From assembly GCF_010550245.1 (NCBI RefSeq), contig NZ_JAAGLU010000025.1, positions 62,001 to 126,000 on the forward strand: a DNA stretch of 64,000 bases, in the 5' to 3' direction. The notes beneath the pieces are model-generated. The model was not told the origin of the DNA, ran no database searches, and worked only from the letters and a program-made list of their open reading frames with translations. Source of the DNA: Streptomyces sp. SID12501 (GTDB lineage: Bacteria; Actinomycetota; Actinomycetes; Streptomycetales; Streptomycetaceae). This document shows, piece after piece, positions 38,085 to 45,253 of the stretch (its first letter is position 1; the number at the start of each line of letters is the position of its first letter). Made by a program: the position numbers and the translations under genes.

Positions 38085-38196
38085 CTACGACCCCACCGGC
38101 GACGCCCGCCCGACCTCGCGCACCGGCGTGAACTCGACGGGCAGGGTACGCAGTCCACGCATGATGAGCCCGCCCCGCCATCTCAACTCGGCGGGA
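38085..38196 (-). pseudogene. cytochrome P450 3'-end relic
   Basis: On the minus strand AELRWRGGLIMRGLRTLPVEF ends a frame that stops at 38085-38087. It matches the last residues of the intact P450 at 40462-41718 (DLRWRGGLIMRGLRNLPVEF) at all but two positions. The rest of the P450 (haem Cys loop, I helix) is absent: upstream of AVPAEL the sequence runs straight into a 21-bp palindrome. It is thus only about 35 codons of a second, oppositely oriented P450. Confidence 0.8.
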
Positions 38197-38221
38197 ACTG
38201 CGCCGAGTTGAGATGGCGGGG
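38173..38221. repeat. 21-bp perfect palindrome made of P450 3'-end sequence
   Basis: ccccgccatctcaactcggc plus g, its exact complement, and a 7-nt loop (ggaactg). The left arm on the minus strand encodes AELRWRG of the P450 relic; the right arm carries the same codons on the plus strand. It may act as a terminator for the recombinase gene. Confidence 0.85.
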
Positions 38222-38289: not shown

Positions 38290-40263
38290 CTACCGCTGCT
38301 TGTCGCGGTCCCCGGCAACCGCACCCCGGACCTCGCCGAGCAGCCCGGACCGGAACCGACCGGTCACAGTGAGCTGCGGCAAGGTCGGCCGCCTGTACGC
38401 ACCGACTCCCGTGACGTCGGCGTCCAGAATCTTCATGACCTCCGGCCAGGCGCCCTTTTGCCACCAGGAGAGCTGGCGCTCGCGAATCGGATCGACGGGT
38501 CCCCAGGTAAGGGGCATATCGCACCACGAGAGGCCATGGCGAAGCCGGTGAAGCATCCCCTCCAACTGGAGACGGATGTCGTACCTGCTCATGAAGTGAC
38601 GCTTGGTGAAGTACGGCCGTAGCACCTCCAGCACCTTCCCCCATTGCTCGTCGTCGGGGTCTGGCGGCACCTTCGTGCCGGTTGTCCAGTGCCAGTCGCT
38701 GACGGCACACCTCCCGCCAGGCTTGCCAAGGATGGCCAGATCGCCGGGGACGACCTTGAGGTCGAACCTGTCGAAGACTTCCTTGCACTCCCCCAGAGTC
38801 AGTTTCTGCAGCCGCTCCTCAATACTGCTCGCGATGTCGACGAGATTGCCCGCCCGGCGTTCGTGATCGGTGTACGCCTCCAACCACTGCTGGGCGAACC
38901 TGCGCTGTTTCCGGAAATCAGCCAGTTCGGTCTCAAGCACCGCGATGGAGGCCTTGAGTACCGCTGGGTCGACACCGGCGCGTACGTACTCGGGGATGCG
39001 CACCTCGATCAGGTGCTCCTGTTCGGCGATTCTGGTCGTGAACTCGGAGACGCGCTTCTCGTACTTCTCCTTGTCTCCGGAGAGACCGCCCACTCGCTCG
39101 GCAGCCAAGCCCCCTGGACAGCCTTCGGCTTCGAGGAGCATGGCCAGCTCCTTCCGGACGGCGCCTTCGATGTCGTCGGCCTCAAAGTGGGGCTCACGGC
39201 ACGAGGGGTCCTTGAGAAGTCCCTTGCAGCGGTACGACCGGCCCGTGCCCCGGCCTGCTCCGGTGTACACCTCGCCGCACAAACCGTGAATCCGTCCGGT
39301 GAGGGGATAGACGGCGTTCCCGCGCCGACCGTTCTGGAAGCCGAGCCTCTTCAGGGCGGCCATGAGCTGTGCGGCCCGTTCCACGGAGAAGATGGGCGGG
39401 ACACCGATTTTGACCGGGTCACCATGGACGGGTGTGCCGTCGTCGCCACGGCGGGTGTGGTTCTTTCCGTTACCGCGGTCGGTCTTTCGGTAGACGACAT
39501 AGCCGTCGTGGATGGTTTCGCTGTAGAGGCGGCTGCGGAGGTTGGCAACGCTCCAACGGACACCGCTGCGGGCGAAGAGCCTGCGGTTGTTGAGCTCTTC
39601 GCAAGCCTCGGTGAGGTTCATACCCTGGTCGATGATGAGATCCGCCGCGACAGCGAGGACCATGGATTCATCGACGTCGGTGACCAGAACTGAGAAGCGC
39701 TTACGGCGTCCTCCGACGTCCTTGGCGTCCTTCTCGATCCTGTAGCCGTAGGGAGCCGGGCCACCGGGCCAGCCGCCGTAACTGATCTTCAGCTCTCGGC
39801 CGGCGACGGTGCGCTCCTTGATGCGTCGCCAATCCCTTTCGGAGAAGGTGACGTATCGCATGAACTGCTGCCAGCCCTCTTCGGTGCTGGTGTCGATCCC
39901 TTCGGTGACCGAGATGAAGTGGATACCGAGGTCAGCCATGTTCCACGCCCACTGATAGGCGGCTCGGGCCGTTCGCCCAATGCGGTCGACCTTGGGGACG
40001 AGGATGCGATTGAAGTGCTGCTGCCGTGCATCGACAACGAGACGGTCCATCTCAGGTCGGCTCTCCAGAGCCCCGGACACGGCTTCGTCCACGTAGGAGT
40101 CGTAGACGGTGACTTCAGGGTGACGGCCGAGCCATCCGTTGGAGACCTTGTCCTGGTCTTCGAGCCCGAAGCCGTCAAGCTGGTCGAGAGTGGAAACGCG
40201 CGCGTACTTGGCAACGATGACGGCCGCAGGGGCCGCATGGCATGGGCGTGCCACAATGGGCAT
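38290..40263 (-). CDS. large serine recombinase fused to an IS5-type (DUF4096) transposase N-terminal domain
   Basis: 657 aa. The resolvase catalytic domain starts with AKYARVSTLDQ (nucleophile Ser24) and includes ILVPKVDRIGRTAR. A recombinase domain follows (GGWPGGPAPYGYRIE, LNNRRLFARSGVRWSVANLR). Next are a Cys-rich stretch (LTGRIHGLCGE ... YRCKG ... SCREPHF) and a coiled coil (EFTTRIAEQEHLIEVRIPEY onward). The normal end of such integrases would be near residue 530. Here about 125 further residues match the DUF4096 domain of IS5-type transposases (DDEQWGKVLEVLRPYF, LEGMLHRLRHGLSWCDMP, QLSWWQKGAWPEVMKIL). The ATG at 40263 follows TTGGAGGA. It points away from the P450. Confidence 0.85.
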   Translation of the reverse strand: MPIVARPCHAAPAAVIVAKYARVSTLDQLDGFGLEDQDKVSNGWLGRHPEVTVYDSYVDEAVSGALESRPEMDRLVVDARQQHFNRILVPKVDRIGRTARAAYQWAWNMADLGIHFISVTEGIDTSTEEGWQQFMRYVTFSERDWRRIKERTVAGRELKISYGGWPGGPAPYGYRIEKDAKDVGGRRKRFSVLVTDVDESMVLAVAADLIIDQGMNLTEACEELNNRRLFARSGVRWSVANLRSRLYSETIHDGYVVYRKTDRGNGKNHTRRGDDGTPVHGDPVKIGVPPIFSVERAAQLMAALKRLGFQNGRRGNAVYPLTGRIHGLCGEVYTGAGRGTGRSYRCKGLLKDPSCREPHFEADDIEGAVRKELAMLLEAEGCPGGLAAERVGGLSGDKEKYEKRVSEFTTRIAEQEHLIEVRIPEYVRAGVDPAVLKASIAVLETELADFRKQRRFAQQWLEAYTDHERRAGNLVDIASSIEERLQKLTLGECKEVFDRFDLKVVPGDLAILGKPGGRCAVSDWHWTTGTKVPPDPDDEQWGKVLEVLRPYFTKRHFMSRYDIRLQLEGMLHRLRHGLSWCDMPLTWGPVDPIRERQLSWWQKGAWPEVMKILDADVTGVGAYRRPTLPQLTVTGRFRSGLLGEVRGAVAGDRDKQR

Positions 40264-40461
40264 GTTCAGTCCTCCAAGACTGTTCCGTCCCCGGAGTGTT
40301 CGCTCACTGCCGGGAGGGTTCCGGCTCCTTTGCGCTGCTGCAAGCGCTCTGGAGCCGGTGCCGTTTTGGGGAACTTTACCTGTCACTCTGTGCAGTTGAA
40401 GGGGAATTGCGCAGGTCGGTGTCCTCACCTACGCAATACGGCTCCCGGTACCGTCACCCCC

Positions 40462-41718: not shown

Positions 41719-41782
41719 GGGGTGTGGATCAGGACGTCGTCCAAGTCCTCGCGTGGGATACCTGGGAGGACACAGCTCACGC

Positions 41783-41965
41783 TCCTTGACCTCCTCCGGC
41801 ATGGACGCGTTCTCGTCGCCGGAGCCGTGTGGGTGGCGGTGGATCAGTTCGGTGATGATGCTGGCCGCCACGTCGTCGATGGAGAACGGGGTTTCCGTGT
41901 CCTCATCAGCGATGCGCGACGGCGTCGCGGTGGGCTGATGGTGGCGTGGAAGAGCGGTCCTCCAG
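41783..41965 (-). pseudogene. decayed fragment of a second mazG
   Basis: The minus strand encodes PFSIDDVAASIITELIHRHP followed by HGSGDENASMPEEVKE. This aligns without gaps to PFSIDDVAAGIVTKLIHRHP and HVFGDETASTPEDVKE in the intact mazG at 44081-45118. Upstream, CTTCCACGC and GCGCATCGC, adjacent in the intact gene, are separated by about 25 foreign bases. The frame breaks at both ends and the C-terminal part is missing. Divergence from the intact copy shows it is not a recent duplication. Confidence 0.85.
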
Positions 41966-42118: not shown

Positions 42119-42628
42119 TCACGCAGGAGAACCGGGTGCAGATGCTCGCCGTGCGCGGTCCCGTCCGGCGATGGCCTCGGCGACCTCTTGGATGGCGCCA
42201 CGAAGCAGGTCACCGTAGGGATCCTCAGGAAGGTTGGGGGCCTGCGCTTTGGCGGCGGTGATGTGCTCGGTGGCGGCTTCGAAGGAGCCGAGTCGGCGGT
42301 AGTTGTCGGCAAGGTTGAGGTGCAGGGAGGGGTAGAAGCCGGCGATGTGGAGGCTGGCGTGGTGCTTTTGGACGCGCTGCTCGGTCACCGCGTCGGCAGC
42401 ATCCAGGGCCCTGACGTCCCAGGCCAGCGCCTGGGCGGGATCTTCGTAGAAATCTGCGAGGTAGTGAGCGAGCGAGCAACGGTGCAGCGGGTCGCCGGTG
42501 ACACCGAGCACGGCCCACAGATTCAGGAGTTTTTGGCGGGCGGAAGCGATATCGCCAGCTCGGCCTTTGGTGACGGCTTCGCCGATGGCTTCCATGGTCG
42601 AGTCGGGGCTGGCGGGTGCGGCGGTCAT
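42119..42628 (-). CDS. TPR-like helical protein downstream of the MerR/clamp regulator
   Basis: 169 aa, all-helical, with TPR-type spacing: GDIASARQKLLNLWAVLGVTGD, RCSLAHYLADFYEDPAQALAWDVRALDAAD, SLHLNLADNYRRLGSFEAATEHITAAKAQAP, YGDLLRGAIQEVAEAIAGRDR. It probably binds peptides or proteins. The ATG at 42628 follows GACGAGGAA. It lies 22 bp after the regulator gene at 42651 on the same strand, so the two form an operon. The family is seen in Streptomyces but its role is unknown to me. Confidence 0.75.
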   Translation of the reverse strand: MTAAPASPDSTMEAIGEAVTKGRAGDIASARQKLLNLWAVLGVTGDPLHRCSLAHYLADFYEDPAQALAWDVRALDAADAVTEQRVQKHHASLHIAGFYPSLHLNLADNYRRLGSFEAATEHITAAKAQAPNLPEDPYGDLLRGAIQEVAEAIAGRDRARRASAPGSPA

Positions 42629-42650
42629 AGAACATTCCTCGTCGTCGTGT

Positions 42651-43706
42651 TCAGACGGAACGGTGGTCGGATTTGATGGGCATGGCCAAGGTGGTGAGAT
42701 CGCCGCGATCGGCGGAGCGGATCGTGACGGGCTGGTCGTGCCCTCTCAGGTCGAGCATCACGTCGGGGCCGATCGCGGTGCTCACGGCGGGATAGAGCGT
42801 CGTCAGCTCGAACCAGGTCTGTAGGGACTGCCCTGTCGCGGTGGCCGGGAGCGGGATGTCCGGGTGTTCGTCATCCGCTGACCGGACGTTCATTCCGTGG
42901 TCGGTAACGTGCAGCGCGATGCGATCGCCGGGGTGGTCTTCCAGGGCCCGCAGGAGCAGCTCCTTCGAGACTGTCACACGGGTGGTGACCTCGCTAAGTG
43001 ACGCGAGCATCAGCCGGTAGTCGGGAAACTCCTCGGACAGCAACCGGCAATACCGGTCCTCCCGGTCTTCCATTCGGAGCCAGATTCCGTGCACCACCGC
43101 TTCGAGTCGCACCAGCGCGCTGCGGCGGATTTCGGCGATCGCGGCCCGCAGCTCGTCGCCGTCGACCGTGCCGACCCACGTCTGCCTCGGTGGTTCAGCC
43201 GGTACCAGGGTTCGTGTGGAGAGCCGGTATCGGTCAGTAGCGGTCAGGGTGACCGCCTCATGACTCGCCTCGATGCACAGGCCGGCGAGTACCGGCATCC
43301 CCGGCTCACGTGCGGTCGCGGTCAGGACCTGTTCGACCGCATTCGCCAGCACAGGACCCTTCAGCACAACAATCGGCAGACTTGACACGTCGCCGAGTAC
43401 GGACTTGATGACTGCAGCCTTCTGCTGCGCCGCTACCGCGTCCCCAACGACCTTCGCGACATGCTCGTCCAGGAGCCGGGATGCCTCGTCAGCCCTGGCT
43501 TCGAGGACAGCCTCGACAACAGCGAGGGGCATAGCGATCTCGCGGAGCTGACGCAGCATGGTCGCCCGCGCCACCTGGTCAGCGCTGTAGTAGCGGTAGC
43601 CCGAGACCGGGTCGACCTCGGTGGGATTCAGCAGCCCGGAGTCTGCGTAGAACCGCAACGCGCTTGAGGTCAAGCCACTGCGTTGGGCGAAGACCCCGAT
43701 CGGCAT
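42651..43706 (-). CDS. MerR-family regulator fused to a DNA polymerase III beta-clamp-like domain
   Basis: 351 aa. The N-terminal MerR winged helix is clear (MPIGVFAQRSGLTSSALRFY, ADSGLLNPTEVDPVSGYRYY, then MLRQLREIAMPLAVVEAVLE). From about residue 112 the protein resembles the bacterial sliding clamp: VLKGPVLANAVEQVLTATAR, CIEASHEAVTLTATDRYRLS, LLSEEFPDYRLML, and the end SADRGDLTTLAMPIK (compare the clamp's closing MPMR strand). A MerR head on a clamp-like sensor or scaffold is unusual. Start choice is uncertain: ATG 43706, GTG 43724 or TTG 43745. Operonic with the TPR-like gene. Confidence 0.75.
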   Translation of the reverse strand: MPIGVFAQRSGLTSSALRFYADSGLLNPTEVDPVSGYRYYSADQVARATMLRQLREIAMPLAVVEAVLEARADEASRLLDEHVAKVVGDAVAAQQKAAVIKSVLGDVSSLPIVVLKGPVLANAVEQVLTATAREPGMPVLAGLCIEASHEAVTLTATDRYRLSTRTLVPAEPPRQTWVGTVDGDELRAAIAEIRRSALVRLEAVVHGIWLRMEDREDRYCRLLSEEFPDYRLMLASLSEVTTRVTVSKELLLRALEDHPGDRIALHVTDHGMNVRSADDEHPDIPLPATATGQSLQTWFELTTLYPAVSTAIGPDVMLDLRGHDQPVTIRSADRGDLTTLAMPIKSDHRSV

Positions 43707-43785
43707 CAGCTCAGAATTTGGCACCTCGCCATCATTGAGCTTCAACCAACTCGAAGGTCAACACCGGCGAGCAGCGCCACCAACC

Positions 43786-44080: not shown

Positions 44081-45118
44081 TCAGCGCCCCTCCCCAGCCA
44101 CCTCCGCCGTCCCCTCCTTCACCCGCACCGCATCCCGATAAGCCCGCGCGGCGGCCCGCAGTGCCGCCTCCGGGTCCACGCCCTCGCGCTCCGCCCGTAC
44201 CGCCATCTCCAGCAGTTCGTATCCGATGCCCTCGCCCTGCGGCAGCGGGACGTGCAGGCCCGCCGTGTGTACCCGGGACGCCAGCTTCGCGGCCAGTGCG
44301 AGGCCCGGCTGGCCCAGGGGCACGCCGTCCGTCACCGACTCCCGCTGCTTCTCGACCGCCTTGGTGCGCAGCCAGTGCTCCTTGACGTCCTCCGGTGTGG
44401 ACGCCGTCTCGTCGCCGAAGACGTGCGGGTGGCGGTGGATCAGCTTCGTGACGATGCCGGCCGCCACGTCGTCGATCGAGAACGGGGCTGTGCCCTCCTC
44501 GCCGTCCTCCTCGCTGCCCTCCTCGGCGATGCGCGCGTGGAAGACGACCTGGAGCAGGACGTCCCCCAGCTCCTCGCGCAGTTCGTCCCGGTCGCCCTCC
44601 TCGATCGCCTCGACGAGTTCGTACGCCTCCTCAAGCCCGTACTTCGCCAGGCCCTTGTGGGTCTGTCTGGACGACCACGGGCACTCCAGGCGGATGCGGT
44701 CCATGACCTGCACGAGGTCGAGGAGGCGGGCGCCGGGCAGGTCGTAGGAGGCGGGGAGGAGTTCCAGGTCAGGCATCCGTACGCGGCCTGAACCGGCGAG
44801 GCGTGACAGGCCGTCGGTGAGTGCCGGGTCGCCCTCGCCGGTCGTCACGACCACGGCCGTCCGGCCGCCGGCGCAGGTGCCGATCAGGTCCTCGGCGGTC
44901 GGGGAGGTCTCCTCGACAGTTATGCCGGCGTCCCGCAGATACGGCAGCTGCGGATGCGTACCGTCCGCGCACAGCACCCGGTCGGCCGTGTGCAGCACCT
45001 GCCAGGCGGGCCAGGACAGCAGGCCGGGCGCGACGCGGTGGCTGGTGGTGAGCAGGACGACACGACCGGGGTCGGTCTCCGTCTCCGGAGCGGTCTCGAA
45101 GCCGCTGGTTGCGTTCAC
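44081..45118 (-). CDS. mazG: nucleoside triphosphate pyrophosphohydrolase
   Basis: 345 aa. The N-terminal 110 residues (GRVVLLTTSHRVAPGLLSW, ADRVLCADGTHPQLPYL, TAVVVTTGEGDPALTDGL) resemble a degenerate tetrapyrrole/SAM-methylase-like domain. A MazG domain follows: DRIRLECPWSSRQTHKGLAK, LEEAYELVEAIEEGDRDELREELGDVLLQ with the EExxE...ExxD metal ligands, and FSIDDVAAGIVTKLIHRHPH. The enzyme hydrolyses non-canonical or excess NTPs. The GTG at 45118 (MNATSGFET) is preferred; a GTG at 45136 is in frame. It lies downstream of the SurA-like lipoprotein gene on the same strand. Confidence 0.9.
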   Translation of the reverse strand: MNATSGFETAPETETDPGRVVLLTTSHRVAPGLLSWPAWQVLHTADRVLCADGTHPQLPYLRDAGITVEETSPTAEDLIGTCAGGRTAVVVTTGEGDPALTDGLSRLAGSGRVRMPDLELLPASYDLPGARLLDLVQVMDRIRLECPWSSRQTHKGLAKYGLEEAYELVEAIEEGDRDELREELGDVLLQVVFHARIAEEGSEEDGEEGTAPFSIDDVAAGIVTKLIHRHPHVFGDETASTPEDVKEHWLRTKAVEKQRESVTDGVPLGQPGLALAAKLASRVHTAGLHVPLPQGEGIGYELLEMAVRAEREGVDPEAALRAAARAYRDAVRVKEGTAEVAGEGR

Positions 45119-45253
45119 CCTTCGAACGTAACCCACACCACCGACAGCCCCACCGGTTGTCCACAGGCCAGCACGCCCCTGTGCACACAGGCGCCCGTAA
45201 ACCCGGACACCCGTGCGGACAACCGTTACGCCGTGGCTGCTACGCCCTGGCCG

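Follow-up and report, generated by a model that had tools for sequence, protein, structure and literature searches.

The open reading frame 42651-43724 on the minus strand encodes a MerR head followed by a long helix and by domains II and III of the sliding clamp DnaN. It lies in a window of 64,000 nucleotides from Streptomyces sp. SID12501 (contig NZ_JAAGLU010000025.1, positions 62,001 to 126,000), which is the whole stretch of DNA that was analysed. There is, in our judgment, about an even chance that the protein acts as a self-inducing MerR switch of the TipA type, which would sense, and perhaps sequester, a ligand of the clamp pocket. The features of the locus are collected in Table 1.

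TABLE 1 Features of the MerR-clamp locus in the window
Feature	Positions	Strand	Remarks
mazG-like remnant, 111 nt	41781..41891		87% to 44377-44487 of intact mazG; edge of insertion
TPR-fold partner, 169 aa	42119..42628	-	22 bp downstream of fusion
MerR-clamp fusion regulator	42651..43724	-	357 aa from the most likely start, GTG 43724; 364-aa ORF if from TTG 43745
Sliding-clamp domains II+III, residues 123-360	42666..43379	-	Canonical pocket, subsite II altered
Long helix, residues 85-117	43395..43493	-	33-residue helix in structure model
MerR winged helix-turn-helix	43497..43706	-	Residues 14-83 of 364-aa ORF; Pfam MerR_1 E 1.7e-13
-10-like element AATGAT	43731..43736	-	Followed by six bases (43725-43730), then GTG start
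19-bp spacer with most of imperfect putative operator dyad	43737..43755	-	8+3+8 dyad spans 43739-43757
-35 element TTGACC	43756..43761	-	From upstream alignment

Domain organization and fold of the fusion protein

The N terminus of the fusion carries a winged helix-turn-helix of the MerR family. It is followed in the structure model, which was predicted as a single chain, by the long helix, which we take from knowledge of the family to be the MerR dimerization helix. The C-terminal part was matched by Pfam DNA_pol3_beta_2 (E = 3.1e-8) and, over residues 128 to 358, by the NCBIfam DnaN model (E = 9.9e-12), the latter at 44.5 bits and hence below the model's cut-off of 137.65 bits. With phmmer, residues 127 to 348 aligned with residues 140 to 373 of Mycobacterium smegmatis DnaN (E = 2.8e-11), corresponding to domains II and III. 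Of the three DnaN domains the fusion has only these two, and domain I is absent. The TipAS-type effector domain (PF07739) gave no match in the fusion at E ≤ 1; clamp domains are found there instead.

The structure model had a pLDDT of 84.5 and a pTM of 0.71. Its best VIA-align match was M. tuberculosis DnaN (Z = 26.6, rmsd 2.4, 237 aligned), and Escherichia coli clamp chains containing only approximately residues 118 to 366 (8vat_G and 8vam_G) matched with Z scores of 24.9 and 24.3. The best Foldseek match had an E value of 1.1e-17, and sliding clamps or clamp complexes made up 49 of the 50 rows listed; row 49 (5x06_A) bears the title "DNA replication regulation protein." An earlier note on this DNA had proposed that a MerR head is joined to a clamp fold in the position that a small-molecule domain would have, together with a Foldseek comparison with DnaN that would speak against the idea if clamp similarity was lacking. 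Pfam, phmmer, VIA-align and Foldseek all bear the proposal out.

Clades and distribution

In a tree of the clamp parts, which also held two DnaN sequences, the fusions formed the groups A plus A2 (support 0.98), B (0.97) and C (1.0), and A, A2 and B grouped together with a support of 0.99. The fusion of the window belongs to clade A, and its genome carries a clade C fusion as well. Fusions were present in at least 25 of 61 Streptomyces genomes (9 with clade A, 5 with clade B and 12 with clade C). In the phylum sample, searched at an E value of 1e-25, they were found in at least 11 of 396 genomes and at least 4 of 236 genera, with one of the 11 matches (G519) aligning to residues 6 to 122 only, i.e., the head region. 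These prevalence counts are lower bounds.

Clamp pocket and ring interface

The clamp pocket was mapped by aligning 44 fusion sequences (27 of clade A, 3 of A2, 5 of B and 9 of C) with the DnaN proteins of E. coli and Streptomyces, using the residues given for subsites I and II in the accessible part of PMC11139829. Four residues of subsite I, namely T172, R176, M362 and the arginine at position 174, are kept in all 44 fusions, this arginine being the actinobacterial form of the clamp residue. Position 175 is Y or F in 44 of 44, L155 and P242 are each kept in 43, the L177 position holds L or M, and V247 and V360 are mostly substituted by similar residues. R152 is lost in the fusions. R246 is lost in clades A and B, being L or V in clade A, and is R in clade C. 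In subsite II, P363 is kept in 43 of 44 sequences. The N320 position is mostly E in clade A, D in clade B and N in eight of the nine clade C sequences, Y323 is replaced by T in clade A and V in clade B and is F or Y in clade C, and R365 is mostly K in clade A. Subsite II is changed in clades A and B and largely retained in clade C.

With all clamp columns taken as exchangeable, the conservation of subsite I exceeded that of random clamp columns (P of about 1e-4 for A, A2 and B together and 5e-5 for C). The conservation of subsite II was not above background (P = 0.17 and 0.065, respectively). The conserved pocket positions are partly buried, so that their conservation is favoured in any case. 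According to the accessible part of PMC10817943, griselimycin fills both pocket subsites. Since subsite II is altered in clade A, the ligand in this clade may be something other than griselimycin.

The end of the domain III interface helix is absent from the fusion, as is domain I, and the domain I/III dimer interface of DnaN is therefore missing. The positions of I272 and L273 are gaps in 35 of 35 sequences of A, A2 and B and are not kept in C, and none of the 44 fusions has E at position 304; the alignment is uncertain at I272/L273 and at 298 to 304, with the Streptomyces DnaN row itself gapped at I272, and no weight is placed on the loss of single residues in these places. A ring-forming DNA clamp was ruled out by the absent domain I and the lost end of the interface helix, and the fusion is unlikely to make a standard DnaN ring. 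Judged by these residues, the ligand-binding part of the clamp stayed and the clamp-making part went.

Start codon, promoter and operator

The longest open reading frame of the fusion is 42651-43745(-). All 35 clade A genes have GTG or ATG at codon 8 of this frame, and codon 1 is TTC, TCG or CTG, i.e., not ATG, GTG or TTG, in 3 of the 35, indicating that GTG 43724 is most likely the start, rather than ATG 43706, at which the gene had been ended before. Two plasmid records annotate the start at the same codon 8. A start at TTG 43745 was rejected because the DNA from there on belongs to the operator and the -10 element and because some of the genes have no start codon at codon 1.

Most of the upstream conservation falls within the bases that immediately precede the gene and consists of TTGACC, 19 bp, a hexamer, six or seven bases and GTG or ATG. 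Every one of the 54 upstream sequences compared contains TTGACC (35 of clade A, 3 of A2, 5 of B and 11 of C). The hexamer 19 bp past it takes a form typical of each clade, namely NATGAT or NACGAT in clades A and A2, for the most part GACAAT in clade B and CAGAGT or CAGGGT in clade C, all of which are weak -10 boxes; the 19-bp spacing and the placement of the -10 element were set by eye on the alignment. Clade C has the same promoter plan as clade A. The 35 clade A promoters comprise 16 distinct 25-mers. Among distinct sequences, the mean dyad symmetry was 5.1 of 8 positions in clade A (16 sequences), 6.6 in B (5 sequences) and 6.5 in C (10 sequences), compared to 1.9 to 2.1 in shuffled sequences; the dyad of A2 was weaker (mean of 4.0 of 8, three sequences). 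Over-long spacers of 19 to 20 bp with an internal palindrome are described as typical of MerR targets in the accessible part of PMC9909328, and the fusion promoter, as read from its sequence, has both a spacer of this length and a dyad. The promoter ends six bases before the GTG, which would place +1 at or near the start codon, and the mRNA is thus probably leaderless.

We scanned 21 genomes for the clade A operator pattern, allowing at most three mismatches. Exactly one site with two or fewer mismatches was found in 18 of the genomes, each time within 60 nt upstream of the regulator. Of the three genomes without a site, two (G053 and G038) have broken pairs, and in the third (G438) the system has diverged. 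At three mismatches there were six further sites, compared to two in the backwards control. With the clade C pattern, each of the 12 genomes scanned had a single site with zero or one mismatch, located at the regulator, and one two-mismatch site was found elsewhere (G013); at three mismatches, 36 sites were found, compared to 25 hits in all from the backwards control. A wider clade A regulon was rejected, there being zero sites with two or fewer mismatches beyond the regulator's own promoter. Since the close operator matches come singly in each genome and lie in front of the regulator, the predicted regulon is the operon itself, comprising the regulator gene and, in clade A, the TPR gene. Additional sites that are weak or of a different architecture may exist. 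On sequence grounds alone, this is the layout of a minimal autoregulated system of the TipA class.

Internal start in clade C

An in-frame ATG or GTG at the joint of the MerR and clamp parts, with a Shine-Dalgarno sequence upstream, was present in 15 of 15 clade C genes, including the one in the genome of the window (L002, G000:C243:83140-84219; the others are L020 to L028, L030 and L117 to L120). The Shine-Dalgarno sequence reads AGGGAG, AAGGAG, GGGAG or AGGAG and lies 6 to 9 nt upstream of the start. It uses the codon AGG in 12 of the 15 genes, in which AGG accounts for 32 of 601 arginine codons. This arrangement predicts a clamp-only short protein made beside the long regulator, as TipAS is made beside TipAL.

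In clade A, including the window, the only internal start is a weak GTG inside the invariant KGPV, and a TPR gene is present instead; an internal start is not claimed for this clade. The scan of clade B gave scattered hits in three of five genes.

The TPR partner gene

The predicted structure of the partner protein (pLDDT 85.0) consists of stacked TPR hairpins, its best match being the TPR domain of LGN (Z = 16.9). The profile evidence is weak, with a TPR_2 match at a Pfam E value of 0.0061, below the curated cut-off. No effector domain was found in the partner by Pfam and NCBIfam profile searches. The TPR protein is probably a peptide- or protein-binding helper. A possible clamp-binding motif in the partner, QKLLNL, was rejected, since its Q is not conserved.

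A homologue search of genome contigs yielded 33 loci, 26 with full-length close homologues of the fusion and 7 with broken or partial ones. A TPR match was found just downstream of the fusion in all 26, covering at least 155 residues in 25 of them and residues 1 to 60 in the remaining one (L046). Among the broken or partial loci (L057, L062 to L066 and L068), TPR pieces were detected at L057, L063 and L064. The TPR gene was also present at all eight further clade A loci (L007 to L014). Downstream of another full-length clade A regulator (L112, genome G106), the TPR match was limited to residues 1 to 38, indicating that the TPR gene is not indispensable everywhere.

A TPR search of 121 Streptomyces genomes gave 17 places at E ≤ 1e-50. 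The full fusion lay upstream in 15 of these and only its C terminus in one (L073); the remaining place, without a fusion, was itself split (L085). A short TPR fragment with 69% identity was found in G001. The pairing of fusion and TPR gene persists down to 42% regulator identity in another family (L114 to L116). In clade B, a TPR gene (approximately 31 to 35% identical) follows the fusion in three of five loci (L016 to L018), and at the clade C loci none was detected in the short flanks.

Streptomyces genomes also have a core TPR paralogue (approximately 35 to 52% identical), covered here by the loci L099 to L108 and a survey of 121 genomes. In 105 of these genomes it follows ung on the same strand at a distance of no more than 5.5 kb, and in 93 the distance is within 400 bp, counting the best-ranked ung place per genome and excluding 13 low-ranked TPR fragments. 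When core TPR loci of Streptomyces were sampled, ung was within the flank at 12 of 12. A universal link of the TPR family with ung was rejected, being absent at nine of nine sampled fusion-free loci of other families. Neighbours at the sampled loci (ligA, lipB and others) were named by reading of the sequences.

Locus setting and mobility

The mazG-like remnant is located on the opposite side of the fusion-TPR pair from the intact mazG gene (44081-45136). The duplicated piece is below full identity, and perhaps a foreign mazG was brought in with the insertion. A serine recombinase gene with Resolvase, Recombinase and Zn-ribbon domains is present at 38290-40428. The C terminus of this recombinase runs into an IS4/5-type DUF4096 piece, suggesting an IS insertion. 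Next to the gene, two perfectly matching 21-nt arms around a 7-nt loop form an inverted repeat (38173-38221).

The pair is also found on two Streptomyces linear-plasmid records, annotated as "MerR family transcriptional regulator" and "hypothetical protein." On plasmid pADI95-16b (L179, NZ_CP033583.1, 92492-101574), it lies approximately 3.6 kb from a plasmid-borne dnaE. One clade C MerR-clamp gene (L021, 127-2565) immediately precedes a gene that we read as recA; this arrangement was seen in a single genome, and contexts elsewhere vary. In a coarse neighbour survey, in which the ORF calls missed several TPR genes that tblastn found, no other gene group was common to four or more large loci, except for three groups among the close relatives L058 to L061, one of which also occurred in L046. 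The sole PADLOC match was to the MerR head, as was the one match in phage records.

The earlier note had placed a co-transcribed TPR gene beside the fusion, in an accessory insertion. The gene is adjacent and co-inherited in 26 of 26 full-length close homologues, being truncated in one, and the mazG remnant, the recombinase and the plasmid copies of the pair support an accessory, mobile setting.

Proposed mechanism and alternative explanations

In the proposed mechanism, a MerR-clamp dimer would sit on its own promoter, and a compound or peptide fitting the clamp pocket would bind the C-terminal domain. The ligand-bound MerR head would then distort the over-long spacer and switch on its own operon. 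Induction would yield the TPR protein and more MerR-clamp protein, which could serve as a pocket-bearing decoy that soaks up the ligand. The protein would thus be a sensor plus sponge built from the drug target itself; the sequestration part of this idea is an analogy. The likeliest natural ligands would be actinomycete natural products that bind the clamp pocket, of the griselimycin and mycoplanecin kind or unknown relatives. In the accessible part of PMC10817943, griselimycin and mycoplanecin are described as nanomolar clamp-pocket binders made by actinomycetes, the clamp is presented as a real antibiotic target in these bacteria, and the extra DnaN genes griR and mypR are read as self-resistance genes.

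The clamp fold, the largely kept subsite I, the lost ring parts, the operator at the own promoter and the TipA-like layout of clade C argue for a self-inducing clamp-ligand switch. Against it stand the altered subsite II in clades A and B, the losses of R152 and, in these two clades, R246, the weak internal start in clade A and the lack of a link with second DnaN genes. No enrichment of the latter was detected in the carriers: two or more DnaN matches were found in 2 of 16 known clade A carriers, compared to 34 of 105 other genomes. Overall, 36 of the 121 Streptomyces genomes had two or more DnaN matches (E ≤ 1e-20), the second matches listed being 46 to 54% identical. A more far-reaching version of the switch is possible but on balance somewhat doubtful. 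According to this version, an antibiotic target has been turned into a sensor of clamp antibiotics that induces only its own operon, and decoys together with a TPR helper (clades A and B) would form a portable target-mimic resistance switch, with a clamp-only form in addition in clade C.

The clamp domain may instead read the clamp-binding motifs of polymerases and repair proteins, or free clamp loader, so that the operon would answer when such proteins accumulate, for example after DNA damage. In favour of this, the fold is that of the protein to which such motifs naturally bind, the fusions retain most of subsite I, where the hydrophobic end of the motif is accommodated, and the core TPR paralogue lies downstream of ung in most Streptomyces genomes. 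However, subsite II, the binding place of the motif's Gln, is altered in clades A and B, no operator with two or fewer mismatches occurs beyond the regulator's own promoter, the ung link is missing at all nine sampled fusion-free TPR loci of other families, and the distribution is patchy (at least 11 of the 396 genomes sampled across the phylum, with E ≤ 1e-25 as the limit). Such a replication-stress sensor is considered unlikely. The suggestions of the earlier note that touch on this point fared differently. Recognition of clamp-binding peptides by the fusion is plausible, with subsite I mostly kept and subsite II changed in sequence (N320 to E, Y323 to T). Action of the clamp-like part as a clamp on DNA finds no support, domain I and the interface-helix end being missing, and neither does a wider tie of transcription to replication or damage, operators with two or fewer mismatches having been found only at the regulator's own promoter. 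The interpretation given there is, as a whole, partly supported.

A response to phages would suit an accessory, mobile two-gene module. In this view, the pair would be induced when the clamp domain binds a phage polymerase or a clamp inhibitor encoded by the phage, and the TPR protein would act as the effector. A complex of the clamp with Gp168 (7evp), which we take to be a phage protein, was also among the structural matches. PADLOC, however, gave nothing beyond the hit to the MerR head, and Pfam and NCBIfam found no effector domain in the TPR partner, which makes this explanation improbable. Sliding clamps are natural oligomers and hold DNA, and the clamp domain could accordingly serve only to hold DNA or to scaffold a dimer or oligomer and take no ligand. 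We give this little credence, since the fusions have lost domain I and the interface-helix end, and the conservation of subsite I exceeds that of the remaining clamp part.

Significance and comparison with known systems

If the proposed switch senses through its clamp domain, its promoter should respond to a clamp-pocket ligand and could then serve as a reporter for finding clamp-directed antibiotics. The fusion would also represent a ligand-domain class new to MerR regulators, a resistance route relevant to griselimycin-type drug programmes and a clear example of how the target of an antibiotic can be put to new use in sensing. Plasmid records annotate the protein as a MerR regulator, and Pfam detects the clamp domains. 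No description of a MerR-sliding-clamp fusion was found in the titles and abstract openings that searches of open-licence PMC papers listed.

The fusion shares the domains II and III fold and most of pocket subsite I with DnaN but differs in being without domain I and the interface-helix end and in being fused to a DNA-binding head. GriR and MypR are, like the fusion, clamp-derived actinomycete proteins adjoining mobile elements, with a possible role against clamp drugs. They are described as DnaN genes in the accessible part of PMC10817943, whereas the fusion is a regulator with a partial clamp. It is not a second DnaN gene in a biosynthetic cluster, and its locus has no conserved neighbour except among a few close relatives. 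Regulators of the BmrR/EcmrR type, with GyrI-like domains, resemble it in having a MerR head, a C-terminal ligand domain and spacers of 19 to 20 bp (accessible part of PMC9909328), and the difference lies in the clamp fold of the ligand domain.

There is also a close likeness to the TipA class (TipAL/TipAS and SkgA), which combines a MerR head, a coiled coil and a C-terminal ligand or drug domain under autoregulation. The accessible part of PMC7762955 describes this class as minimal autoregulated drug-resistance systems, with two isoforms made from tipA in S. lividans. Clade C is like TipAL/TipAS in its internal start for a predicted sensor-only short form. In contrast to the TipA class, the sensor has the DnaN clamp fold rather than the TipAS domain, a TPR partner accompanies the clade A fusions and some of those in clade B, and the long form is probably leaderless. 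The fusion is thus a MerR protein by its head and promoter and TipA-like in its logic, with a sensor domain that is, as far as could be seen, new.
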